NCBI GenBank assembly: GCA_026692885.1
Contig: JAPLNJ010001059.1
Span: forward strand, 1-13,586
Direction: 5' to 3'
Source of the DNA: Planctomycetota bacterium
Lineage (GTDB): Bacteria > Planctomycetota > Planctomycetia > Pirellulales > Pirellulaceae
Length of the DNA: 13,586 nt
Shown here: piece after piece, positions 2,090 to 11,942 of the stretch
Layout of the letters: every line of letters starts with the position of its first letter
Position numbering within the stretch: the stretch's first letter is position 1
The notes under the pieces: model-generated
What the model was told of the DNA's origin: nothing
Databases searched by the model: none
What the model saw: only the letters and a program-made list of their open reading frames with translations
Translations under genes and position numbers: made by a program

Positions 2090-2141
2090 CTGACTGGTCA
2101 GCATGACTGGTCAACCTGACTGGTCAACCTGACTGGTCAGC
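2090..2141. repeat. Four tandem 13-bp repeats with palindromic core
   Basis: Four contiguous units (2090-2102, 2103-2115, 2116-2128, 2129-2141) follow the consensus CTGACTGGTCARC. Each contains TGAC-TG-GTCA, a dyad. They lie between two convergent genes, and the last copies code the final residues of the minus-strand reading frame that ends at 2111. There are no spacers, so this is not a CRISPR array. Confidence 0.85.
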
Positions 2142-2862
2142 AGCTTGACGGCTGAACCCTGCTGCGCTACGCTGCCAGCCGGAGCGAGTCTTGCGTCGAG
2201 GGCAGTAACAAACGCGGCGAACGGGCGTTCCGAACCTTCCTGGCCGCAAGCCATCATGGTGTTGCGCAGGCCAAGCCCAGGGCCCGTGCCAGAACCTGCC
2301 GGTTCTCCCAATACCCCGCTTCGTCTCGGACCTCGTGCACGATGCCCAGCGACTGCGCGCGTTGGAGCAGGTCGACGACGGCCAAGTGACACCGGCGGGA
2401 GTTACTCGCCCCGCCGTATTCACGATTGCGAGCATATTCCGTCTTGCAGAAACTGCTCCAGCGCCAACCGTGTAGCCTGGTTTCGATGCGGTGATGGCCC
2501 CGGCCGTCCTGGCCGCCCACTTGGATCACCTCCGGGTAACGGCAGAGACCGAAATTGGCCGGTTCGCATCCCGGCCCCGGCCAGCAGGAGAAGGCGATGA
2601 CGTGCAGCGGGACGATGCAGTAGTGGCGTGCCTGTTCGAGCGGATCGGTCACCGACGATTGGGCTTGGATCAAGAGCCAGCGGTGCAGATGATCTTGGTC
2701 GAATCGGTCACAGTCGCAGTCGTCACCCGTCAGTTCGATCATGTCTCCGACGCTCTCGAAGGGCAGGTCCAACGCCCGGCTTCGCAGGCGGCTCACCACG
2801 TCCTTCGCCTGTTCGGGACTTTGCGCCGTGGATCGCAGGCGGTAGTGAATCGTCAATCCCAT
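2111..2862 (-). pseudogene. Conserved uncharacterised protein, frameshifted near its C-terminus
   Basis: The main frame starts at ATG 2862 (AGAGGAA about 8 bp upstream) and gives MGLTIHYRLRS, RALDLPFESVGDMIELTGDDC, a central block with FSCWPGPGCEPANFGLCRYP, then GWRWSSFCKTEYA, RCHLAVVDLL and DEAGYWENR. I recognise these as landmarks of an uncharacterised family frequent in planctomycetes. That frame stops at 2254 after ALGLACATP. The overlapping frame continues as NTMMACGQEGSERP down to 2111, matching the expected WN-x-M-I-A-like continuation, so a one- or two-base indel near 2265-2280 has probably split the gene. The last residues (LTSQVDQSG) come from the 13-bp tandem repeats. It is the distal gene of the minus-strand series. 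Function is unknown; a sequencing error could also explain the shift. Confidence 0.6.
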
Positions 2863-2962
2863 GACGGGGATTCCTCTCGTTGTTAAGAGTCAGTGAAGGG
2901 GGTCGGCCATCGCCTCCGCAGACGGTTTGACGGCTTCTGTGGAGGCGGGGCCATCCGGTGTC

Positions 2963-2990
2963 GATCCCGGCACAGAACTGCGCCGGGATC
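2963..2990 (-). terminator. Strong intergenic hairpin after the WGR gene (terminator-like, no U-tract)
   Basis: GATCCCGGC (2963-2971) and GCCGGGATC (2982-2990) form a perfect 9-bp stem with a 10-nt loop, in the gap between the WGR gene stop (3029) and the next gene start (2862). No T-run follows on the minus strand, so it may be a processing or stability hairpin rather than an intrinsic terminator. Confidence 0.45.
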
Positions 2991-3028
2991 AGGAATCTTG
3001 TCTGGTCGACGAGTTGCGGGAATTCCGC

Positions 3029-3247
3029 TTACGGTGCGACGGCTTCGACGTAGCCCTTGCCGATCTTGGCCGTGACGAGTTTCTCCGCGTGCCGGGTCGC
3101 CGCCGCCGAGTCCGGGAAGGACTTCACCTGCGTCTGGCCGTCCGTGCCGATCCGCCCAAAGCGGACCGTCACCTCAGTGCCGCTGACGCCGAGTTCCCAG
3201 AACTTCGCCGAATTGCCGCCGACGAACTCGAAGTAACGCTTGTGCAT
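3029..3247 (-). CDS. Stand-alone WGR-domain protein
   Basis: The 72-residue product is a single WGR domain: RYFEFVGGNSAKFWELGVSG, then TVRFGRIGTDGQTQVKSF, and a closing helix with HAEKLVTAKIGKGYVEA. The WGR domain takes its name from a Trp-Gly-Arg motif; here the core reads FGR. WGR domains occur in PARPs and in small bacterial proteins beside DNA-modifying enzymes, and bind nucleic-acid ends in eukaryotic PARPs. The start is ATG 3247 with only a weak purine-rich site (AAAGAG) upstream. It sits 91 bp after the ligase gene on the same strand, so a role alongside that ligase is plausible but inferred. Length is near that of minimal WGR proteins, with no sign of truncation. Confidence 0.85.
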   Translation of the reverse strand: MHKRYFEFVGGNSAKFWELGVSGTEVTVRFGRIGTDGQTQVKSFPDSAAATRHAEKLVTAKIGKGYVEAVAP

Positions 3248-3289
3248 GTTGAACTCTTTCAGGTTGTTGATGATGTTGATGGGGATAGG

Positions 3290-3320
3290 GCCGAGCAGCC
3301 GGAATGCCCGGCTGCTCGGC
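3290..3320 (-). terminator. 13-bp perfect hairpin between ligase and WGR genes
   Basis: GCCGAGCAGCCGG (3290-3302) pairs perfectly with CCGGCTGCTCGGC (3308-3320) around a 5-nt loop. It lies just after the ligase stop (3339) and before the WGR start. No T-run follows on the minus strand. It may stop or pause transcription or protect the upstream mRNA 3' end. Confidence 0.5.
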
Positions 3321-3338
3321 GACCAAGACGTGGATGGT

Positions 3339-4365
3339 TCAGGCCAACACGGACATGCCAGCTTTAGACCGGACCCGCACGAAGGACGGGAACCGGGGTA
3401 CGCCGCGTTCGGTCAGTTCCTGGTACCGGAACGTGATCGAGCTGCCGATGGGCGGTGGATGTTGACGCTCGGCGTCCGTGAACCCGGTGCCCACCGAGAA
3501 GGTCAGGCCGTTGGGCAACTCTGCGACCACCGCGCCCAGTCGTCCGGCGTGACGCCCACAGCCCGGCAGGTGCTCGACCACACGGGCTTCCGCGTCATGG
3601 AACGTCTTCACCTTCAGCAAGGTGGACGATCGGCCTGGCTCGTACCGTGATGCCGGCTGCCGGAGCATCAAGCCTTCGCCACCCAGGCTCTCGACACGGG
3701 CCAATTCAGCTTGCAGATGGCTGATGCCGGTGCAGCGATTGTGTTGAAGCACCCGCGCATACTGCGGCCGATGCTCCCGCAACGTGGTCTCCAGAAACGC
3801 TTGACGGTTCTCAAACGGCCCATCGGCGGCCGGTGCGTCGAACACCACAAAGGCGATCCGCCGCCAGTGGTCGCTTTGGTCGTGCCGGCGCACGATACTC
3901 ACGGTCCGCTGAAACGCTTTGCGATCCAGCCACAACTCGCCGTCCAACGGCAAGCTTGGCAGCCCCGCCACAAACCAGTCGGGCGCGTGATACACATTGC
4001 CCTGCCGTGAGAGGAACTCCCGGCCGGTCCACCACGCCCGCACTCCGTCGAGCTTCTCGCTCATCCACCAACCAGCCAGGTCGATGTCGTTTTCCTACCG
4101 CTCGGCCAGCAGCAGGTTTGGAACGGTGCGTGTGGCTGAAGGCGTAGACGCCGAAGGCTTCGAGAGCAGTGCGCCCAGGCGTTCCTGTTCGGCCTGTTCG
4201 CTACGGAATGCGGGGGTGTTTGCACGTCCGACGTTCGATGGGCAGCGACTGGTTGCGCCAGGCGGGGCACGTGCAGGAATACACCCCGCCGACGTTCTTC
4301 AAGATATACGGTAGGCGAGCCGACCCTTGCACCAGGGTCGACTCGCCGTCTTTCAAATCAGGCAT
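3339..4365 (-). pseudogene. ATP-dependent DNA ligase with N-terminal zinc-finger-like domain (frameshift plus amber codon)
   Basis: From ATG 4365 (AAGGA upstream) the frame reads MPDLKDGESTLVQGSARLPY, VGGVYSCTCPAW, then RRTCKHPRIP and a stop at 4201-4203. This CxC...CxH module resembles a SWIM-type zinc finger found before some bacterial ligases. The shifted frame continues RSEQAEQERLGALLS to PNLLLAER, where TAG (4095-4097) stands where Trp is expected. The same frame resumes ENDIDLAGWWM and keeps the whole catalytic core (241 aa from Met 4064): motif I EKLDGVRAWW with the adenylated Lys, motif III LDGELWL, IIIa FVVFDAP, IV EGLMLRQP, V LLKVKTF, then an OB-fold-like C-terminus. The core could still be made by re-initiation at 4064. 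Neighbours are the AAA+ ATPase gene 42 bp upstream and the WGR gene downstream. Sequencing error is the alternative to real decay. Confidence 0.8.
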
Positions 4366-4407
4366 GTTGATGGTCCTTGGTTCCTTGGTGTTAAGAAGGG
4401 GCCGCTG

Positions 4408-5907
4408 TCAGTTGCTTAGTGGATTGCGGGCCACCTTGCGGCGTGTGCCGGTCTTGCCAGCCTCGCGTGCGTAGATCCCGCCCTTGTCGGCGTCCAAGCA
4501 CCGGCCGATGGCCCAAGTCCGCAATCGGTCCACCGACTCGGCCGCCGTGACCGCCACCGGCACGACGTTCTGCGCGGCCTGGACCAACGGAACGTCCAGT
4601 AGGGCAGCCAATCGACAACAACTTCGTATTTCGGCACCCGTGAAGTTGTCGTCTGGTGGCAGCTTCTGGTTGGCGTCGATCTCGAACAGGTCCAGATAGA
4701 TTTGCCAGATGGCCTGCTTCTGGTCTGCTCCCGGAAAGTCCAGGAAAAACGTCCCGTCAAATCTTTCCGCTCGACTGAACTCCGGCGGCAGCTTCGCGAC
4801 ATCGTTGGCCGTGCAAACCACGAACACATCGGACTCGTGGTCGTTGAGCCAGCTCAGAAACGTGCCGAACATTCGGGACGACACGCCGCTGTCCGTCTGG
4901 CCGGAATTGCCCACGCCCGAGAACGCTTTTTCCACTTCGTCAATCATCGCCACGCATGGTGCCATCGCGTCGATGATCTGCAAAGCCTCGCGAGTTCGCT
5001 GCTCCGTCTGCCCGACTAACGACCCCATCAGCGTCCCGACGTCCAAGATCAACACCGGACGCCCGGTTTCCTTGCCCAGGCACTTGCAGAACTGCGACTT
5101 GCCGCAGCCGGGCGGCGACAACAGCAGCACACCACGGGGCCGCTTCAGGGGATTGCTGCGACTCGGCTGCAACAAGGCCCGCTTGGTGAACGCCTTGAGC
5201 GACGCCAGGCCGCCCAGGCTGCTGAAGTCTTCGGTGCCCCGGTACAGCTGCATCAGGCCACTTTTCTTTAGCGTTTGGCACTTCAGGTCCCAGACCGCAT
5301 CGGCCGTGAGGCGGCCGTGTCGGACCAGCGACAACGAGTAGGCGGACTCCGCTTCGTACCGGGTCAGACCGGCGGCCGCATCCAGCAACATGTCGAGCTC
5401 GGCGCCCACCGGCAGTTCACCATCTTCGGTCGCGATACCGCGGGCGATGTCATCGAGTTGCTGGCGGCCGGGCAGGTCGTGCTCGATCACGACGAAGAGT
5501 TTCTCTAACTCCACTGGGATCGAAACGATCGGAGATAGGATTACGACGAACGTGCGCTGGAGTTTTCCTTTGGCGATCTGAGCCGCCAGGGCCTGGACGA
5601 TCTCGGGACTGTTCAAGAAGCGGTGAAAATTGACCAGGACCAACAGCGAAGACGTGTCGGCCGAGCCGAGCGCATCCAGCGATCGGATGGCAGCCAGGGG
5701 ATCGTTGGTGCCGGTGTCGACGCTGGCCCCATCGTCTTGACGGTTGATGGTCAGGCCGCGGTGGATGTCCCACACAACCAGTCGCCAGTTCTCGCCTTGG
5801 CACATCTGGGCGATTTCGGTCAGGGCGTCTTCGTGTTCGTGGGACTGAATCCACAGGCCGGTGAAACAAGCGGAGATGTATTCAGACAGGTGCGTGCAGA
5901 GCGGCAT
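4408..5907 (-). CDS. AAA+ ATPase, Ycf46-like
   Basis: The product is 499 residues, close to Ycf46 length. The N-terminal half (1-225) has a Rossmann-like look with TSSLLVLVNFHRFL (Walker-B-like strand) and RTFVVILSP, as in Ycf46-type proteins. The C-terminal AAA+ module has Walker A SPPGCGKS (264-271), Walker B VAMIDEVEKA (319-328), the GVGNSGQTDSGVSSRMFGTF segment, sensor 1 CTAND (365-369) and an arginine-finger region EFSRAERFDGTF. ATG 5907 is preceded by AGGAG about 9 bp upstream. Ycf46 relatives are predicted soluble ATPases of poorly known function; in plastid and cyanobacterial lineages Ycf46 is linked to photosynthesis regulation, which cannot apply here. DUF1257 (Ycf35-like) and DUF2997 genes upstream on the same strand are the expected partners. 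Confidence 0.88.
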   Translation of the reverse strand: MPLCTHLSEYISACFTGLWIQSHEHEDALTEIAQMCQGENWRLVVWDIHRGLTINRQDDGASVDTGTNDPLAAIRSLDALGSADTSSLLVLVNFHRFLNSPEIVQALAAQIAKGKLQRTFVVILSPIVSIPVELEKLFVVIEHDLPGRQQLDDIARGIATEDGELPVGAELDMLLDAAAGLTRYEAESAYSLSLVRHGRLTADAVWDLKCQTLKKSGLMQLYRGTEDFSSLGGLASLKAFTKRALLQPSRSNPLKRPRGVLLLSPPGCGKSQFCKCLGKETGRPVLILDVGTLMGSLVGQTEQRTREALQIIDAMAPCVAMIDEVEKAFSGVGNSGQTDSGVSSRMFGTFLSWLNDHESDVFVVCTANDVAKLPPEFSRAERFDGTFFLDFPGADQKQAIWQIYLDLFEIDANQKLPPDDNFTGAEIRSCCRLAALLDVPLVQAAQNVVPVAVTAAESVDRLRTWAIGRCLDADKGGIYAREAGKTGTRRKVARNPLSN

Positions 5908-6156
5908 ACGAGGTCTCCTAGGTTTTGGTGGACGGTTTTCGGACTGGGAACAACAACAATAAGCAGGCCGTTTTGGGCACCCTCCGTCAGACTCTGTTGC
6001 TGCGTCTGCTCAGCGCAGAACTCGCTGATGGAGCGTGTGTACGGCGACGAAGAAATCCGAGTGAACAGCATGCACCACATGGCCGCCGTGGACGAAGTGG
6101 CTCACTAGCCACTGGTATAGCGACGGGATACAGCTGGTAACGTGGAATTCCGATGG

Positions 6157-7125
6157 TTATTCATCGGGCGATGGCAGACGGTTCCGGCCGGCAAGCAGGT
6201 TGAATCGCTCCAGCAGGTCCGGCCGCAGGAACTCCAAGTGAAGGTTTTGATTCTTGAAGCAGCGAAACGCAAAAAAATCGGTGCGGCCCTTTCCGTCTCG
6301 TCCGCAGGTGCGGATCGCCGAACCAAGCGGCCCGTAGTGCGTCTCCGGCATGCCCTTGCCATCCAGTCGGTGAAAGATGTTGTCCAGGGCCGTAATGTGC
6401 TTCTCGCGGCCGTGCGTCGGCCTCCAGTACTCGCCAGGCCATCCGCGTTCGACCATCCACGGCCGGATGATCTTCCGGTTCAGCTTGAAATCGCTGTTGC
6501 GAACGTAGTCGGCGCAGTGCCGCGAAGGACGCCAGAAGTCATACTCTTCGTGGATTGCCTCAGACATGAACTCGTCGGCTGATTGGATCGTGCCGGCCAG
6601 CACTTCGTAGATCGTTTCCTCACTGATCTCCGGCAGTTGCGTAGCGGTTGCTGGTTCCCACCGGCGCTCGCCGTGAATCTCCCGGTCAAGTTCTTCCTGG
6701 CGCTTGCTCGACATGATTTTGCGGATTCCGAGCTTGTTGATCAGCACGCCCCAGGCGGCTCGGCGCATCCGGTCTTCCAGGTATTCGGCCGCTTGGACAT
6801 TAGCGTGGTGCTGTGACCCGTTGAAGTAGACGTCCACGCCGAAAGCGTAGTCGTCCTGGAAGGCTGCCTTCAACTTGTCACACTCGGCACCGATCTCGAC
6901 GACAAGTTCCATCAGTCGGCCAACGGAGGCCCGATAAACCGACGCCAGCCTTGCGGCGCCGCGGTACTCAACCAGTTCACCCATGCTTGGAAGGCCCGCG
7001 ATTCTTGCGGCTTCCACGTGGACGTCTTCTTCGCGGAACATGCGCACTCCGTCCACCACGCTGTTGGCAAACGCGGCGGCGTGTTGTTCGTCTGGCATCT
7101 CTGGCAGTTCGCATTCGTGGATCAT
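6157..7125 (-). CDS. DUF4942 domain protein
   Basis: The 322-residue product opens MIHECELPEMPDEQH. Its middle has FQDDYAFGVDVYFNG (about 89-103), AAWGVLINKLGIRKIMSSKR (124-142) and PEISEETIYEVLAG (165-178). It ends with FFAFRCFKNQNLHLEF (284-299) and DLLERFNLLAG, the typical close of DUF4942 proteins. These are mostly found on phages, plasmids and integrated elements, with no established function. The frame is open to an ATG at 7338, but I chose ATG 7125 because AGGTGA lies just upstream and the extra N-terminus looks non-protein-like. A 249-bp gap separates it from the ATPase gene downstream; I see no convincing gene in that gap. Confidence 0.8.
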   Translation of the reverse strand: MIHECELPEMPDEQHAAAFANSVVDGVRMFREEDVHVEAARIAGLPSMGELVEYRGAARLASVYRASVGRLMELVVEIGAECDKLKAAFQDDYAFGVDVYFNGSQHHANVQAAEYLEDRMRRAAWGVLINKLGIRKIMSSKRQEELDREIHGERRWEPATATQLPEISEETIYEVLAGTIQSADEFMSEAIHEEYDFWRPSRHCADYVRNSDFKLNRKIIRPWMVERGWPGEYWRPTHGREKHITALDNIFHRLDGKGMPETHYGPLGSAIRTCGRDGKGRTDFFAFRCFKNQNLHLEFLRPDLLERFNLLAGRNRLPSPDE

Positions 7126-7133
7126 CTGATCAC

Positions 7134-7508
7134 CTATTCCTTGGGAAACCTGACGGTGGACGGCTTGGTGTTTTCGGAGTATCGTGACCGCTCGACTCGT
7201 TGGTGTGCGCGAATCGCGGTCCCTATCGGATTGCATTGAAGTGGTCGCACAGGCGTGACCGCAGCCAGCCAGCGAACCCGTGCGTGCCTGTCGCGCACAC
7301 GGCCCGTGAACGAGGAAGTCGAAGTCTGGCCTGGGCACCGAGCGTAGGACTGACGACTGATCAGATTGACCACGGCACGGCCAACAGCGGGCTTTAGCTT
7401 CGAGACGCCCCTGTCCGGAGTGCTTCCGCAGGCGAGGATATCGCCAGCATCAATTGATTCGGTCCGCGGGCAGTTATCGCCACTCCGGACCGCCAACGCA
7501 TACACCAT
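7134..7508 (-). CDS. Possible 124-aa protein filling the DUF3846-DUF4942 gap
   Basis: This frame runs from ATG 7508, 11 bp after the DUF3846 stop, to TAG at 7134, 8 bp before the DUF4942 start. It therefore fills a 393-bp gap almost exactly. The product is basic and Arg/Ser/Thr-rich (for example RVRDRHARVRWLAAVTPVR), with no domain I recognise. Third-position GC is not strongly raised, no clear ribosome-binding site precedes ATG 7508, and the DUF4942 frame is also open through part of this stretch. It may be a real small gene or untranslated spacer. A 10-bp inverted repeat, GTCCGGAGTG (7413-7422) with CACTCCGGAC (7491-7500), lies within it. Confidence 0.3.
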   Translation of the reverse strand: MVYALAVRSGDNCPRTESIDAGDILACGSTPDRGVSKLKPAVGRAVVNLISRQSYARCPGQTSTSSFTGRVRDRHARVRWLAAVTPVRPLQCNPIGTAIRAHQRVERSRYSENTKPSTVRFPKE

Positions 7509-7518
7509 CACCCGCAGG

Positions 7519-7929
7519 TCAGATTGGCGTTTGCCTATACATTGTTCTTTTCCGCTCCGTGGCCTGCGGTCCCGTCCGAGCAAGAATCGCAGCCTTCTCC
7601 AGCAACTCATGAAGCAGCGGCTGGAGAATATCGAAGCCGGCTCCCACCTCATCGAACTCGCCGCTCTCGTCTTTGCATCCGACGATCACCATGGCGCCCT
7701 TGATATAGTCGCCAGGCGCCAAGCCGATCCGGTAGTCAAAGCAGAGCTTGGTCGCAAGCTCGTTCCGTGGTAGCCCTAGAGCAATGCCATCCTCGTTCAC
7801 GTACGCCTCCGTCGTGTCCGTGAACGGCAAACACTGGACATACCCGCCGACCCAGGACTGAAAGTCCTCGAACTTACCGTCCCGGATATCCACCAGCCCG
7901 CTGGCCGGGATGAACAGCACATGAGCCAT
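7519..7929 (-). CDS. DUF3846 domain protein
   Basis: The 136-residue product has the DUF3846 core: FEDFQSWVGGYVQCLPF (about 20-36), AYVNEDGIALGLPRNELAT (42-60), then GDYIKGAMVIVGCKDESGEF (73-92). The tail is a Leu-rich helix and a basic end. DUF3846 proteins are small and common on mobile DNA; biochemical function is not established. The start at ATG 7929 is well supported by AGGAGG 7 bp upstream. That ATG overlaps the TGA of the small ORF before it (TGATG), so translation is probably coupled. It belongs to the same co-directional series as DUF2997 and DUF1257. Confidence 0.82.
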   Translation of the reverse strand: MAHVLFIPASGLVDIRDGKFEDFQSWVGGYVQCLPFTDTTEAYVNEDGIALGLPRNELATKLCFDYRIGLAPGDYIKGAMVIVGCKDESGEFDEVGAGFDILQPLLHELLEKAAILARTGPQATERKRTMYRQTPI

Positions 7930-8087
7930 CAGTAGTCCTCCTGGTCGTCATGTTCCTCTTCCGCGTGCTCTCGGCAGCGAAAGGAACGAAACTCCTGAGT
8001 GCTCCCGCCGATGCCGTGCAGGCCAGCGGGAACACGGTTGCTGGCCAGGCACCAATTCGATACGTCACGGCCAGTCGGTTGTGACAA
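7929..8087 (-). CDS. Small ORF (about 52 aa, TTG start) between DUF2997 and DUF3846
   Basis: A minus-strand frame with no ATG runs from TTG 8087 (or TTG 8093, overlapping the DUF2997 stop) to TGA 7931-7929. The stop shares its A with the DUF3846 start codon. The product reads SQPTGRDVSNWCLASNRVP, AGLHGIGGSTQEFRSF, then RCREHAEEEHDDQEDY. The composition looks protein-like: Trp, two Cys, Gly turns and a strongly acidic tail. It fills the 160-bp gap exactly, and stop/start overlap at both ends suggests translational coupling. No clear Shine-Dalgarno precedes the TTG. I do not recognise a family with certainty. A Cys/His pair (CREH) may bind metal. Confidence 0.5.
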   Translation of the reverse strand: MSQPTGRDVSNWCLASNRVPAGLHGIGGSTQEFRSFRCREHAEEEHDDQEDY

Positions 8088-8089
8088 AA

Positions 8090-8284
8090 TCAAGCACGCT
8101 GCTGCGTGGCCAACTCGACCTGCTGTTGCTGATGAAACTCGGCCGTCAGTTGCTCACTGGTTTGCTGGCCCAGAGCTTGCTCCAAGAACTTGCTGGCCTC
8201 GCGGCAGGACGAACCGGCGAAGCCCTTGGTGGTGACGGTGGTCTCGCCCTTGGGCGACACGATGATCTCAATGATCTTGCTCAT
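8090..8284 (-). CDS. DUF2997 family protein
   Basis: The 64-residue product, MSKIIEIIVSPKGETTVTTK then GFAGSSCREASKFLEQALG, matches the DUF2997 layout: a beta hairpin, the G-F-x-G-x-x-C-x-x-A motif with a single conserved Cys, and a helix ending LEQALG. A Gln-rich tail follows. ATG 8284 overlaps the DUF1257 stop (ATGA, 8281-8284), and GGAGGT lies 5 bp upstream inside the DUF1257 gene, so the two genes are translationally coupled. DUF2997 commonly travels with DUF1257 and a Ycf46-type ATPase; the biochemical role is unknown. Confidence 0.88.
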   Translation of the reverse strand: MSKIIEIIVSPKGETTVTTKGFAGSSCREASKFLEQALGQQTSEQLTAEFHQQQQVELATQQRA

Positions 8285-8652
8285 GCGGCACCTCCGTTTA
8301 CCTGGACGGTCAGTTTGATCGACCCATCGCTCAGGGTCTGCTCGGTGCAGGTGTGCCCCTTACGACGACACTCGGATCGGGCTTTCTCCACGGCATACGC
8401 TTGCAGGAACGTATCCAGCTGCTTTTTCTCGCCCCAGCGGCCGTTGAAGTTGTCGTACTGGACGTGGCCCGAAGCAACATCACAGATAGCCGGATAACGC
8501 CACTTGGGCAGTTGCACAGCGAGCCCGGTGGCAGAGCTGCTGAACAGTTTGTGGGTGCCCTGGACGGGCTGAGGTAGCCGGAGTCGTTGACACGCGGCCT
8601 GGACGGCAGCGGCGTCTCTGACTTCCGTCTTGATACTGACGAGATGCGACAT
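8281..8652 (-). CDS. DUF1257 (Ycf35-like) protein
   Basis: The 123-residue product begins MSHLVSIKTEVRDAAAVQAA and has the DUF1257 order of parts: an N-terminal beta-alpha segment ending LRLPQPV, a middle VQLPKWRYPAICDVASGHVQ with YDNFNGRWGE, the helix LDTFLQAYAVEKARSECRRK, and a closing strand DGSIKLTVQV. DUF1257 includes the plastid and cyanobacterial Ycf35 proteins; function is unresolved. The start ATG 8652 has AAGGA about 10 bp upstream. Its stop overlaps the DUF2997 start by four bases, and the Ycf46-like ATPase lies further down the same strand, so it forms part of a recognisable trio. Confidence 0.86.
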   Translation of the reverse strand: MSHLVSIKTEVRDAAAVQAACQRLRLPQPVQGTHKLFSSSATGLAVQLPKWRYPAICDVASGHVQYDNFNGRWGEKKQLDTFLQAYAVEKARSECRRKGHTCTEQTLSDGSIKLTVQVNGGAA

Positions 8653-8705
8653 GGAAATTGATCCTTGATGGTTGATGGACTTTAGACAGACGGACGAGAT
8701 CGACG

Positions 8706-9290
8706 TCAGGCCCGCTTGAGCGTGTCCGTAGGATCGTCATCGGAGACCGACCCAGACTGTTTCGACGGTTGGTGATCCAGCAGCGGGACAAGCTGACGTG
8801 CTGGCAGCAGTATGGGACGATCGGTAGTCAGCTCTTCAACTAGCAGTTCGGCCAGGGCCTCGTCGGTGCCCTGTTTGTCGCGGGTGCACCACAAGAGCCA
8901 GCAGCACACCAGCAACGGCAGCAAGCAAGCCAGGATGCCGGCCCCGGCACAGATTGATGTGCCGAGGATCGAGTCCCAGTAACGGTCCTTGGCAATCTCC
9001 CGGCGTTCAGTTTCCAGCGAATCTCGCTGTCGGCTGACCTCGGCCTGGTCGGTCCGCAGCTCGCGTTGCAACTCCACCAGCTTCTGCCTGGCCTGTGAGT
9101 CCGCCTCCACGAGCTGCTTGGTGCCCTCAGCCACATGTTGCTGCAGTTCGGCCATCTGCTTGTTCTGCTCGGCCTGACGCCGGGTTGACTCCATCGCGAC
9201 CTGGGCCACGCGCGGGTCAGTCTCTTCGCAGCCGATCAACAGAACGATCAGTGCGGTCCACAGGACGCGGCACAACCAATTCATCTTCAT
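8706..9290 (-). CDS. Coiled-coil lipoprotein with a second membrane segment
   Basis: The 194-residue product has a lipoprotein signal ending in the lipobox LLIGC (Cys21). A long charged coiled-coil region follows (about 30-105, rich in Gln, Glu, Arg and Lys, e.g. QNKQMAELQQHVAEGTKQLV). A hydrophobic helix comes at about 109-135 (GTSICAGAGILACLLPLLVC), then an acidic/polar tail. ATG 9290 is chosen because GGAGGAA lies 5 bp upstream; the longer open frame to 9419 has no support. The predicted form is an N-terminally lipidated coiled coil that crosses the membrane again and exposes about 55 residues. It may be a membrane anchor for the module. A terminator-like hairpin separates it from the sigma-like gene. 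I do not recognise a named family. Confidence 0.75.
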   Translation of the reverse strand: MKMNWLCRVLWTALIVLLIGCEETDPRVAQVAMESTRRQAEQNKQMAELQQHVAEGTKQLVEADSQARQKLVELQRELRTDQAEVSRQRDSLETERREIAKDRYWDSILGTSICAGAGILACLLPLLVCCWLLWCTRDKQGTDEALAELLVEELTTDRPILLPARQLVPLLDHQPSKQSGSVSDDDPTDTLKRA

Positions 9291-9349
9291 GCGGGTTCCT
9301 CCAACGTGACAGGATTCGGGATGCCAGGCAGATGGAACGGGTGACAAGG

Positions 9350-9392
9350 ACAAGACAGAAAGCCCGGCGACACAACCGCGTGCCGCCGGGCT
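9350..9392 (-). terminator. Rho-independent terminator-like hairpin after the sigma-like gene
   Basis: AGCCCGGCG (9361-9369) pairs perfectly with CGCCGGGCT (9384-9392), loop 14 nt. Read on the minus strand the stem is followed by TTTCTGTCTTGTCC, a moderately U-rich tract. It starts 24 bp after the sigma-like gene's stop and precedes the lipoprotein gene, so it could end or attenuate transcription between the regulator and the rest. Confidence 0.6.
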
Positions 9393-9415
9393 TGCATGTG
9401 AACAGCGATGCTGAA

Positions 9416-10033
9416 TCAAGCGAACGGGGGGTCGCCCTGGAACTCAACCCACGTCGTCTCCAGTTCGCGCCGGGTCTGCGAGATCCGGCCGGGGCTGACG
9501 CGGAACTTGCGTGCCGTCCGCTTCGTGGTCTCGCCCGTCGCCAGTGTCTGCGCAATCCGGCGTTTGCGCCGGGGCAGACTGTCGAACCACTCTCCGATGT
9601 CGATTCTGGCTGCCGCGGTCTCGGCGGGGCCGGCATGGCGGTCTTCGATCAGGACCTCGTGCCACTCGCCTGTGCGTTCGTCGAAGACGTCCAGACGCTC
9701 GATGGTGATCTGCTTGTGGGCCTGGCAGTACTCGGAGCTGATATCCAGAACATTGAGCTTGGCACCAACACGGCGACCGTCACGGACCTGCTTGATGGCG
9801 TACTGGGCCAATGGCGTCGGGTACACGACTTCGAGCAAGCCCCGTTCGACCAGACGCACGAGCGCGGCCCAGCAGTTGGCGATGACTTCGGCGGTCAGGT
9901 CCTGGCGATGTTCCGCCTTCTCGTTGCGGAACGCGAACCGGGCCTGCTCTTGGATGGCTGGCAGCAGCGACAGGAACTTGGCGCAGCACGCGGACGCGGT
10001 CGATTGACGCAGTTTCTTCGCACTCACGATCAT
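9416..10033 (-). CDS. Sigma-70-like / HTH regulatory protein
   Basis: The 205-residue product has an N-terminal helical region (about 14-85) resembling sigma region 2, with EVIANCWAALVRLVERG and PTPLAQYAIKQVRDGRRVG. A linker with IERLDVFDERTGEWHEVLIE follows. The C-terminal helix-turn-helix (about 153-192), RRKRRIAQTLATGETTKRTA then VSPGRISQTRRELE, resembles sigma region 4. Planctomycetes encode many relatives of this protein, often annotated as sigma-like. ATG 10033 is preceded by AGGAGGT with 7-bp spacing. It is the first gene of the minus-strand series and may control it, though the hairpin at 9361-9392 lies between. No anti-sigma gene is seen. Whether it binds core RNA polymerase cannot be told from sequence. 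Confidence 0.75.
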   Translation of the reverse strand: MIVSAKKLRQSTASACCAKFLSLLPAIQEQARFAFRNEKAEHRQDLTAEVIANCWAALVRLVERGLLEVVYPTPLAQYAIKQVRDGRRVGAKLNVLDISSEYCQAHKQITIERLDVFDERTGEWHEVLIEDRHAGPAETAAARIDIGEWFDSLPRRKRRIAQTLATGETTKRTARKFRVSPGRISQTRRELETTWVEFQGDPPFA

Positions 10034-10056
10034 GGGGACGACCTCCTGTTAGGTAT

Positions 10057-10085
10057 GGTCGCCCACACCGGGGCGACCGTGTGGG
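10057..10085 (-). promoter_or_regulatory. Interleaved dyads in the leader of the sigma-like gene
   Basis: GGTCGCC (10057-10063) can pair with GGCGACC (10072-10078), and CCCACAC (10062-10068) with GTGTGGG (10079-10085). On the minus-strand RNA the order is A-B-A'-B', so the stems exclude each other or form a pseudoknot. They end 9 bp before the AGGAGGT ribosome-binding site of the sigma-like gene. The stems are seen directly; a regulatory role is inferred. Confidence 0.4.
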
Positions 10086-10215
10086 GGAACACAGTCGCCC
10101 TGGCACAATGCCGAGGCGCAAGACGAACTTCAACGACTCAACGACTAACCACCGTGGCGTGGTGGCGAGTCACGGGCGGTGGATACAGCAGGCTTCGGCC
10201 AGGGATGTGTGTGGC

Positions 10216-10228
10216 GGGGGGGGGGGGG
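10216..10228. repeat. G13 homopolymer tract
   Basis: Thirteen consecutive G residues lie on the plus strand, 183 bp upstream of the start of the sigma-like gene (which would see C13). Such tracts are prone to slippage and are also frequent assembly errors. Confidence 0.9.
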
Positions 10229-10338
10229 CTGAAACGAGGAACAGTCGCACCGAACTAGCCGGCAGGACTCTAACAGAAACGTGTCTTCGCCATCGCCGCC
10301 GACAGAAAAAGCAGCAATCAGCCCGCAAAAACCAGTCG

Positions 10339-10367
10339 CTGCTACCTAAGCCTTACCTTCATATAAT
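10339..10367 (+). promoter_or_regulatory. Promoter-like pair in repeat copy 1
   Basis: TATAAT at 10362-10367 is a perfect -10 hexamer, with CTGCTA at 10339-10344 as a poor -35 at exactly 17 bp. The equivalent positions in repeat copy 2 also form a promoter-like pair with the same spacing. Confidence 0.45.
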
Positions 10368-10447
10368 TGTGACGCAAAATGGGGGGGTATTTAGCTTCCT
10401 GACCGGCGTGCGTCGCAGCCCAACGGTAGGTCGCCAGAGCTGGGTAC
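10339..10447 (+). repeat. Diverged direct repeat unit, copy 1
   Basis: This unit shares CCTAAGCC, GTGACGCA/ATGACGCA, ATGGGGGGGTATTTAGCTT, CGCAGCCCAACGG and AGGTCGCCAGAGCTGGGTAC, in the same order and spacing, with the unit at 10603-10712. A 17-bp direct repeat TGAAACGAGGAACAGTC also precedes each copy (10230-10246 and 10458-10474), so a larger block of roughly 230-260 bp seems duplicated. The copy is non-coding: its ATG-GGG-GGG frame stops after seven codons. Confidence 0.75.
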
Positions 10448-10531
10448 CAGCGGCGTTTGAAACGAGGAACAGTCACGCCAAGGTGGCAGGTGAGAGCAAG
10501 ATCGGGACGTGAGATGGCGAGAGGGTGTAAA

Positions 10532-10579
10532 GGCTGCCTAGTCTGAAAGCAGATTCAAAACGAAACAGGCAAGGCAGCC
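10532..10579. other. Stem GGCTGCCT/AGGCAGCC within the duplicated region
   Basis: GGCTGCCT (10532-10539) pairs with AGGCAGCC (10572-10579) around a 32-nt A-rich loop. It lies between the two repeat copies, in the part where copy 2's block is longer than copy 1's. It might be an RNA structure; no function is assigned. Confidence 0.35.
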
Positions 10580-10602
10580 GTCAGGGGTGTGAAGACCGGG
10601 CG

Positions 10603-10631
10603 TTGACACCTAAGCCTGGTCTCCATGTTAT
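10603..10631 (+). promoter_or_regulatory. Promoter-like pair in repeat copy 2
   Basis: A perfect TTGACA (-35) at 10603-10608 is followed after 17 bp by TGTTAT at 10626-10631 (4 of 6 matches to TATAAT). Transcription would run through the G7 tract into the GIY-YIG remnant. No ribosome-binding site is seen before the ATG at 10644. Confidence 0.5.
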
Positions 10632-10712
10632 TATGACGCAGAAATGGGGGGGTATTTAGCTTTCGGACCAGCGTGCGGCGCAGCCCAACGGGAGGTCGCC
10701 AGAGCTGGGTAC
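10603..10712 (+). repeat. Diverged direct repeat unit, copy 2
   Basis: This is the second copy of the ~110-bp unit (see 10339-10447), including the G7 run in ATGGGGGGGTATTTAGCTT and the closing GAGCTGGGTAC. It ends exactly where recognisable GIY-YIG coding sequence begins, so its edge looks like a recombination junction. Confidence 0.75.
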
Positions 10713-10850
10713 ACCCGTAGCCGCCGCCCGGTCAAGCAGGTGTATCAGGAGTCCCAGTGCAGCCAGAGTCTGGCATTGAAGCGGGAAGCGGCGATCAAGA
10801 AGCTGACACGGCGGCAGAAACTGGCGATGGTCCGGGCTGGTAGACAATGA
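10710..10850 (+). pseudogene. GIY-YIG nuclease remnant (C-terminal half only)
   Basis: The frame reads YTRSRRPVKQVYQESQ, SQSLALKREAAIKKLT, RRQKLAMVRAGRQ and stops at 10848-10850. This is the second half of a UPF0213-like small GIY-YIG endonuclease: the R-x-RPV-x-x-VY-x-E strand, ALKRE with the catalytic-type Glu, and the KKLTRRQKL helix. The GIY and YIG strands and the first Arg, needed for catalysis, are missing; in their place the frame runs back into repeat copy 2 to an ATG at 10644. The gene has therefore been beheaded at the repeat edge and cannot be an active nuclease. The frame itself has no stop, so a chimeric 68-residue peptide could be made. Confidence 0.7.
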
Positions 10851-10979
10851 CGACCGTTTACGTGAAGATCCAAGGGACGGACTGTCAGTTGCGCGACGCT
10901 GTGCTGGAAAGTGGAGGCTGCCGAGACAGGGCTTGCAGTGTTCAAGTTGGGAACCAGATCGTAACGGAAAGGAAAGCAC

Positions 10980-11942
10980 ATGTATCCGCTCGAATTCGGG
11001 AATACAGAGGAGAGGGAACGCCAGGCAGGCCCGGCTGCCAGTGGTCGCCGCGAGTTCCTCAAGCAGGTCGGGACGGCCCCTGTCGCGCTCGCCGCAGCCG
11101 GTGTGGCCTACGGCGCCGCGGCTGTCGCGGAGACGCACCCCTTGCCGCAGATCCGGCTGGGCGAGCACTCGGTTTCGCGGCTCATCTGCGGCGATAATCC
11201 ATTTAAGGCGAATTCCCATCTGTCGGTATCTCTCAACCAGCACATGCGGCGATATTACACGCCCGACCAAATCGTCAAGACCTTGCGGCGTTGCGAACAA
11301 GTGGGAATCAACTGCTGGCAAGCCAGCTTCGCCGGTGAGCTGGACCTGCACCGCCGCTACATCGCAGAAGGCGGAAAGATGCAGCTGATCGTGATCGAGG
11401 CGGGCACGGACATCATCGCCAAGGCCAAAGATGCCGGAGCGATCGGCGTGGCCCATCAAGGCGAAGCTACCGATCACCTCTTCAAGTCGGGCCAGCTCGA
11501 CAAGGTGCATGAGTTCCTGAAGCAGGTGCGTCAGGCGGGAATGCTCGTCGGTGTCTCCACCCACATGCCTGCGGTGGTCGACGCCATCGAATCCAAGGGC
11601 TGGGACGTCGACTATTACATGACTTGCGTCTACGAGCGGAACCGTAGCGCCGAGGAACTCAAGAAGCTGCTCGACCACGTGCCCATTCCCGTGAGCGAGG
11701 TGTACTTGACCGAAGATCCGCCGCGGATGTTTCAGGCGATCCGCCACACAAGACGCCCTTGCCTGGCGTTCAAGATTCTCGCGGCGGGAAGGTGCTCCTG
11801 GCATCGCGAGTGGGTCGAGCGGGCCTTCCGCCAGACCTTCCAGTCGATCAAGCCCACCGATGCCGTCATCGTCGGCATGTATAACGAGTTCAACGACGAA
11901 CCGGCCGAAAACGCCGAGTTGGTCCGCCGCTACGGGTCGTGA
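10980..11942 (+). CDS. Tat-exported TIM-barrel / aldo-keto-reductase-like protein
   Basis: The 320-residue product carries a twin-arginine signal: SGRREFLKQVG at about 21-31, then an Ala-rich hydrophobic stretch to about residue 50. The mature part begins PLPQIRLGEHSVSRLICGDN, with HMRRYYTPDQIVKTLRRCEQ, VGINCWQASF, the repeated beta-alpha units of a TIM barrel (MQLIVIEAGTD, AGAIGVAHQGEA, VGVSTHMP, VDYYMTCVYE), CLAFKILAAGR, and a closing TDAVIVGMYNEFNDE then ENAELVRRYG. Planctomycetes have many such exported proteins of unknown substrate. ATG 10980 follows GGAAAGGAAA. No conserved catalytic Tyr/Lys pair of aldo-keto reductases can be assigned with confidence. The next gene, also exported, may belong to the same carbohydrate-related function. 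Confidence 0.7.
   Translation: MYPLEFGNTEERERQAGPAASGRREFLKQVGTAPVALAAAGVAYGAAAVAETHPLPQIRLGEHSVSRLICGDNPFKANSHLSVSLNQHMRRYYTPDQIVKTLRRCEQVGINCWQASFAGELDLHRRYIAEGGKMQLIVIEAGTDIIAKAKDAGAIGVAHQGEATDHLFKSGQLDKVHEFLKQVRQAGMLVGVSTHMPAVVDAIESKGWDVDYYMTCVYERNRSAEELKKLLDHVPIPVSEVYLTEDPPRMFQAIRHTRRPCLAFKILAAGRCSWHREWVERAFRQTFQSIKPTDAVIVGMYNEFNDEPAENAELVRRYGS

Follow-up and report, generated by a model that had tools for sequence, protein, structure and literature searches.

A planctomycete gene run around DUF1257, DUF2997, and a Ycf46-type AAA+ ATPase as a probable truncated or decaying copy of a mobile-element module

Ycf35, DUF2997, and Ycf46 are conserved genes that are little explained, and the planctomycete DNA studied here raises the question of what their relatives do beside a DNA ligase, a WGR protein, and a lipoprotein-like coiled coil. 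The DNA comprises positions 1 to 13,586 of contig JAPLNJ010001059.1 (assembly GCA_026692885.1, Planctomycetota bacterium, family Pirellulaceae); this whole stretch of 13,586 nucleotides is called the window below. An initial annotation had read a run of at least ten of its genes as a membrane-tied system for ATP-driven nucleic-acid processing or conflict, assembled around a trio of DUF1257 (Ycf35-like), DUF2997, and AAA+ genes. Our conclusion is that the run probably belongs to a mobile-element module, of which it would be a truncated or decaying copy. The core of this module consists of DUF1257, DUF2997, a Ycf46-type AAA+ protein, and mostly a DUF3150-like protein with two small proteins. The slot between DUF2997 and AAA+ and the stretch behind AAA+ take varied cargo, which in the window is DUF3846/DUF4942 and a set of SWIM-ligase, WGR, and 202-amino-acid (aa) proteins. 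The place after the DUF3150-like gene is taken by a beta-clamp gene or by a cassette for a ubiquitin-like protein (Ubl), an E1, a JAB protein, and possibly an E2, or, in some loci, by neither. The ligase gene of the window is broken, and no DUF3150, clamp, or Ubl part is seen in it, so that what we have may be a remnant, unless the copy extends past the end of the window.

The module was delimited by comparison of related loci (L and G numbers are our labels for loci and genomes, and coordinates are window positions unless a locus is named). A scan of GTDB genome contigs with the window AAA+ protein gave 29 loci, all planctomycete-titled, whose best segments are 59 to 85% identical; a relative in L001 is 85% identical. 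Six assemblies gave two or three of these loci each. When eight of these genomes were searched whole, six gave at least two module-like matches (in G004 the second is in pieces), G005 and G008 gave one each, and remote paralogues appeared besides. Among 294 planctomycete genomes searched with the AAA+ protein, with at most five candidates scored per genome, 52 had matches at E ≤1e-60, ranging over full length from 70% identity down to paralogues near 33%. From these genomes a further 32 stretches of up to 20 kb were taken, their genes called, and families rechecked by tblastn, for a total of 61 loci: 57 module loci and four controls with remote Ycf46-like paralogues (L087-L089 and L091). Many planctomycete genomes hold the module in two or more copies. 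DUF1257 and DUF2997 both accompany AAA+ in 47 of the 51 module loci with at least 1 kb of upstream sequence, the misses being L015, L027, L074, and L085. The four controls gave no DUF1257, DUF3150, clamp, or Ubl match, and L087 has a DUF2997 gene 0.6 kb off. In the window, all three genes of the trio lie close together on one strand, and the AAA+ protein falls inside the module clade, grouping with L001, L002, L003, L004, and L021 at 100/99 support. It also matches phrog_8638 along its whole length (E 1.4e-83), and its AAA domain is related to that of p97/Cdc48; the name Ycf46 follows the initial annotation. A split AAA+ gene was seen in the module copy of L022, where it occupies two frames (10001-11487).

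The DUF3150-like protein, of about 291 aa, occurs in 38 of the 42 module loci with at least 3 kb downstream (misses L001, L016, L082, and L086). A Pfam search gave no family for it, and its relationship comes from profile comparison with a Candidatus Manganitrophus plasmid protein annotated as DUF3150 (98% probability). It is helical and is followed, in most relatives with enough sequence, by two small proteins. Across the 40 loci with this gene, a clamp gene is present in 16, the Ubl cassette in 17, neither in 7 (L007, with only 1.2 kb downstream, L020, L028, L064, L077, L078, and L083), and both in none. Clamp and Ubl loci intermingle on the AAA tree, as L068 (clamp) stands beside L071 (Ubl) at 100/98, and L067 (Ubl) groups with L061/L063 (clamp) and L064 (neither) at 95/81. 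The clamp gene mostly has about 400 to 480 codons, and its ten-row profile matches the DNA polymerase III beta clamp DnaN (7rzm, E 8.5e-9). The loci with a PD-(D/E)XK/Cas4-like nuclease are 7 of the 16 clamp loci, 2 of the 17 Ubl loci, and L064.

The 17 Ubl loci encode a small ThiS-like protein (E 0.0037, under the cut-off) that ends in, or close to, an invariant KIEGA stretch; the frame as called runs on past KIEGA in 6 of them. The E1 belongs to the ThiF family (E 2.2e-24, over the cut-off). The JAB protein matches Prok-JAB just under the cut-off (E 2.0e-5), and HTHPG and S..D, which we take to be its catalytic motif, are invariant in 10 rows. Ubl, E1, and JAB with that motif occur together in relatives of the window, not in the window itself. 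A Cys-rich protein of the same loci has an invariant H-P-H-x6-C pattern (51 rows), on the strength of which it is a possible E2 candidate; it matched no E2 family or structure. Within the 17 loci the Cys-rich protein is present in 16, JAB in 15, and E1 in 15; L009 and L018, which account for the misses, have little downstream sequence.

The trio had been introduced as recurrent but without known function outside photosynthetic lineages; it is no curiosity there, as it recurs on mobile DNA: on plasmids, on IMG/VR contigs, and in integrated copies. The window AAA+ protein matched 701 plasmid records, and in 22 the match covers at least 80% of the protein; identity is below 60% throughout. Ten plasmid neighborhoods picked from the listed matches have DUF1257 and DUF2997 in six cases, DUF2997 only in two, and neither in two; for one of the last two, from Treponema, a DUF2997 gene does occur at a distance of about 20 kb. 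The order AAA+, DUF1257, DUF2997, DUF3150 is shared by two Candidatus Manganitrophus plasmids, one of them an eleventh plasmid record reached through the DUF3150-like protein, and the trio-bearing plasmids come from several phyla. In IMG/VR, searches with DUF1257 or the DUF3150-like protein led to 28 contigs, 14 of which carry all four core genes. A terminase match was obtained for 8 of 17 IMG/VR records tested; several are weak, and two are confirmed by strong PHROG matches (phrog_979, 4.3e-55; phrog_675, 1.7e-56). The phrog_979 match belongs to a 69.5-kb contig that holds a complete Ubl-type module, a relative of the serine recombinases, and this terminase (E 4.3e-55). Thirteen planctomycete genomes gave few terminase matches, only two of them within 30 kb of a module copy; terminases are thus rare near chromosomal copies, and most integrated copies are therefore not plain prophages. 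A TraG/VirD4-like coupling protein, recognized by eye, lies near the module copy of L020 (3043-4821), a hint of conjugative carriage.

Chromosomal copies likewise keep mobile company. Family models were searched against nine genomes that together have 18 module copies. Within 10 kb, 6 of these copies have a tyrosine integrase (0.55 expected), 7 have any recombinase (0.74 expected), and 4 have an N6_Mtase (0.10 expected); within 25 kb, 4 have a serine recombinase (0.48 expected). Queries drawn from the loci themselves found recombinases in 13 of the 37 loci with at least 8 kb upstream, and PglW, HmaA, or type I restriction-modification genes in 14 of the same 37. PADLOC confirms one example each of PglW (1501 bits), HmaA (1.1e-179), and a type I restriction endonuclease. 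Known defense genes thus stand beside many module copies, which agrees with the overlap with defense islands that the initial annotation had proposed to check.

The cargo of the window recurs in part. The ligase had been described as bearing a zinc-finger-like N-terminus; in the window the finger, whose CxC...CxH pattern we take to be of the SWIM kind, is a separate 54-aa open reading frame (ORF) that is cut off from the ligase. Because the two pieces lie in different frames and an in-frame stop (4097-4095) precedes the ligase ORF, the SWIM-ligase is not an intact fusion here and the ligase gene is broken. The fusion survives elsewhere, as a single SWIM-ligase-WGR ORF of 446 aa in L001 and of 431 aa in L081 and L082. 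In L083, ligase and WGR are two ORFs, and the WGR protein stands alone, as it had correctly been said to do in the window. The nearest solved relative of the window ligase, presumably of the LigE type, is 4d05, an ATP-dependent DNA ligase, and 8u6x is also related. An intact or contig-cut ligase directly follows AAA+ in L001, L003, L081, L082, and L083, that is, once in G001, twice in G006, and twice in G002 (one copy cut by the contig end). This amounts to 4 of the 49 module loci whose downstream sequence is 0.6 kb or longer, with L003, where less sequence is available, as a fifth. These loci fall on two separate branches of the AAA tree, window/L001/L003 and L081/L082/L083; L003 carries no ligase label there because its copy is cut at the contig end. 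Relatives of the 202-aa gene occur downstream of AAA+ in 6 of 57 module loci, and ligase, WGR, and 202-aa genes recur with the trio on both branches. When the L001 ligase protein was searched against 17 genomes, 11 matched at E 1e-10, three of those through the WGR part only, and other ligase copies lie far from the module (about 320 kb away in G129, for example). A relative of the SWIM-ligase, 46% identical over 74%, was seen in a 485-kb uncultured phage record (LR745208.1, 79787-80818), and a WGR protein lies one gene past AAA+ on the Nostoc plasmid of L100 (7854-8402).

The initial annotation had also set as a test, beforehand, that ligase, WGR, DUF3846, and DUF4942 should co-occur with the trio. 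Ligase and WGR do so, as does the 202-aa protein; DUF3846 and DUF4942 do not, having no relative among the called genes of the 61 related loci and no tblastn match in the first 29. DUF3846 was looked for in the loci only, and DUF4942 also in genomes: none of the 17 with the module has it, and 1 of 199 planctomycete genomes does. A protein collection holds 28 relatives of the window DUF4942, the nearest 97% identical. The slot that these two genes occupy measures at most 0.35 kb in 32 of 49 loci and exceeds that length in the other 17. Upstream of the trio, relatives of the lipoprotein occur in 16 of 57 module loci. Relatives of the sigma-like gene occur in 6 of 57, five upstream and one (L080) 8 kb downstream of AAA+.

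Coordinates of the window gene run and the evidence for each assignment
Feature	Position	Strand	Evidence
Sigma-70/helix-turn-helix-like regulator, 205 aa	9416..10033	-	TIGR02937 E 1.5e-5, 24.7 bits, below cut-off of 42.9
Lipoprotein-like coiled coil, 194 aa	8706..9290	-	Coiled-coil-type matches only; lipobox and membrane segment judged by eye
DUF1257 (Ycf35-like), trio member 1	8281..8652	-	PF06868 E 0.0026, 18.4 bits, below cut-off of 22.2
DUF2997, trio member 2	8090..8284	-	PF11211 E 3.4e-18; family alignment A4
DUF3846 protein	7519..7929	-	PF12957 E 3.7e-10; variable slot between DUF2997 and AAA+
DUF4942 protein	6157..7125	-	PF13708 E 5.6e-29; variable slot between DUF2997 and AAA+
Ycf46-type AAA+ ATPase, trio member 3	4408..5907	-	PF00004 E 1.7e-23
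SWIM-like zinc-finger piece, separate 54-aa ORF	4201..4365	-	CxC...CxH pattern in translation
ATP-dependent DNA ligase (LigE-like nucleotidyltransferase and OB domains), broken gene	3339..4064	-	NF006592 E 2.8e-95
Stand-alone WGR protein	3029..3247	-	PF05406 E 9.3e-21
202-aa protein	2254..2862	-	Relatives downstream of AAA+ in module loci; no Pfam or NCBIfam match

All genes named in the initial annotation are present, the ligase in broken form, and all lie on the minus strand. The short gaps reported for the run are found only in part, as the spacing extends from a 4-base overlap (between DUF1257 and DUF2997) to about 390 bases. The run spans 10033 down to 2254, where its last gene ends, not 2111 as first given. 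The identity of the window DUF1257 is secure despite its sub-cut-off PF06868 match because of a family alignment (A1) with 20 relatives, 21 rows in all, which has 29 invariant columns; its predicted structure has a pLDDT of 90.5. Neither a tRNA nor an Rfam match at gathering scores was found in the window. On the plus strand, the flank adjoining the run holds a gvpK gas vesicle gene (354-641; PF05121 E 2.1e-34 on the longer ORF 207-641), a DnaJ-type zinc-finger protein (955-1383), and an Ala-rich repeat ORF (1470-2069). At the other end, direct repeats of 60 and 71 bases, 264 to 265 bases apart (10328-10712), are a possible old boundary. A fragment at 10644-10850, which we take to be GIY-YIG-like, resembles one upstream of the sigma-like gene in L002.

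Several observations weigh against the reading of the run as a copy of a mobile-element module. The window has no DUF3150-like, clamp, or Ubl gene within 4.4 kb downstream of AAA+ and no match to the recombinases of related loci, so that its own mobility is putative. Seven of the 40 loci with a DUF3150-like gene have neither cassette, L020, L064, L077, and L078 despite 9 to 10 kb of downstream sequence. A serine recombinase lies within 10 kb of just 1 of the 18 module copies (0.2 expected), and no terminase is found near any of the five module copies in G246. The loci are not independent, as L001, L002, L003, and L021 come from metagenome-assembled genomes of one sample series and L017 and L018 are nearly identical. 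Finally, the mode of action, in terms of catalysis, oligomerization, and substrate, is one that we infer from gene anatomy.

That the whole ten-gene run is one dedicated, membrane-tied system, as first proposed, is quite unlikely. The recurrence of ligase, WGR, and 202-aa genes behind AAA+ on two AAA branches and of the lipoprotein and sigma-like genes favors it. Against it stand the lack of recurrence of DUF3846 and DUF4942, the broken ligase, and the fact that a ligase is a rarer partner of AAA+ than a clamp or Ubl cassette. Moreover, the trio occurs with the ligase in L081 without a lipoprotein match and in L082 without a sigma-like match, each with more than 9 kb upstream. The proposal is thus partly supported, and the profile is rather that of a mobile-element core keeping company with defense genes. 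Alternatively, the trio might have acquired its window neighbors by accidents of insertion and decay. The broken ligase and the presence of DUF3846 and DUF4942 with the trio in the window only would agree with this, but the recurrence of the other neighbors, including a ligase behind AAA+ in G001, G002, and G006, makes it very unlikely as an account of the run.

Two further explanations concern the trio itself. With the Ubl/E1/JAB cassette it could be an anti-phage defense system like other bacterial Ubl-conjugation defenses, since PglW, HmaA, and type I restriction genes adjoin some loci, 14 of the 37 have a searched defense gene, and the window AAA domain matches IetA models (2e-14). However, 23 of the 37 loci have none of the searched defense genes, no PADLOC model fits a window core protein beyond that domain-level IetA match, and the module occurs on phage-like contigs themselves, so that a function for the mobile element fits at least equally well; we consider a dedicated defense system unlikely. 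A host housekeeping role, as in cyanobacteria and plastids, is hardly credible. It would agree with the placement of DUF2997 and ycf35 with fed7 in Synechocystis (PMC4284462) and with the iron-sulfur genes that adjoin trio genes on some plasmids, but not with two or more copies in many genomes, with plasmid and IMG/VR carriage, or with the four remote Ycf46-like paralogue loci, which gave no DUF1257, DUF3150, clamp, or Ubl match, although L087 has its nearby DUF2997 gene.

Under the reading that we prefer, a copy of a mobile-element module, a remodeling machine with adaptors is suggested because two small proteins and a helical DUF3150-like protein keep the ATPase steady company. The AAA+ protein would form a hexameric remodeler, which DUF1257 and DUF2997 may help to aim. 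Because clamp and Ubl cassettes alternate, the client is suggested to be supplied by the cassette; it might be a nucleoprotein or conjugate from whichever cassette is plugged in (the clamp, a Ubl conjugate, or a nick-sealing ligase with WGR). Such remodeling would act during replication, establishment, or counter-defense of the element, and the ligase step would be broken in the window copy. A broader view is possible, if doubtful: DUF1257, DUF2997, the Ycf46-type AAA+ protein, and DUF3150 may form one general mobile-element remodeling complex whose client-making cassette is swapped at one place, between an element sliding clamp and E1/E2/Ubl/JAB, with the SWIM-ligase-WGR repair enzyme added in two lineages. 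This would be a bacterial counterpart of the handling of clamp and ubiquitin by Cdc48-like ATPases at replication. A block that recurs on plasmids, phage contigs, and integrated elements gives Ycf35, DUF2997, and Ycf46 a testable home, and the either-or of clamp and Ubl behind the same four genes, if functional, would link a Cdc48-like ATPase with a sliding clamp and a ubiquitin-like system in bacteria.

Among known systems, the cyanobacterial and plastid Ycf35/DUF2997/Ycf46 genes share the DUF1257 and DUF2997 families with the window. In the Synechocystis ferredoxin review, DUF2997, ycf35, and fed7 form one cluster (PMC4284462), whereas the trio here is often multicopy and mobile, with DUF3150, clamp, or Ubl genes behind it. 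On Paenarthrobacter and Paenibacillus plasmids (L097 and L098), 4Fe-4S single-cluster proteins lie near trio genes, recalling the fed7 cluster. The PRTRC plasmid cassette (ThiF, A, B, C, E, F, and ParB, with ATPase, DUF3150, and VWA neighbors) is similar in being plasmid borne, in having a ThiF-family E1, and in having a DUF3150 relative a few kilobases from its genes. On Burkholderiales plasmids (L102, L104, and L105), a DUF3150 relative lies close to PRTRC between an ATP-binding protein and a VWA-like protein. In contrast to the module, the ATPase adjoining DUF3150 there is another gene, annotated only as an ATP-binding protein, and no ParB was noticed in the planctomycete cassette. The E1 of the Ubl loci matches PRTRC_ThiF at 1e-7, under the cut-off and not as the best match, and profile comparison of PRTRC B, C, and A (single sequences from one plasmid) with the E2-like, Ubl, and JAB families gave no match.

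Like the module, the mobile E1/E2/JAB/Ubl operons that Iyer et al. 2006 (PMC1779556) describe in prokaryotes group E1, JAB, and Ubl-type genes, in some cases on mobile DNA; they differ in that the Ubl cassette here is preceded by DUF1257, DUF2997, AAA+, and DUF3150; the term "AAA" is absent from the main text of that paper. In the literature searched, DUF3150 was not mentioned, Ycf46, ubiquitin-like, and AAA+ were not found together, and neither were WGR domain, DNA ligase, and SWIM; DUF2997 appears there in two papers and DUF1257 in three. IetAS pairs an AAA+ protein with a subtilisin-like protease. SgiAT is reported to show the same pairing for an AAA+ protein of the SpoVK/Ycf46/Vps4 kind (PMC10954446). 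The likeness to the module lies in an AAA+ protein of this kind on mobile or defense DNA and in the IetA matches of the window AAA domain; as a difference, a subtilisin-like protease was not noticed here, with no search aimed at proteases. The window ligase, finally, is related to LigE-type ligases through NF006592, 4d05, and 8u6x, to which the planctomycete forms add a SWIM-like N-terminus and a WGR C-terminus.

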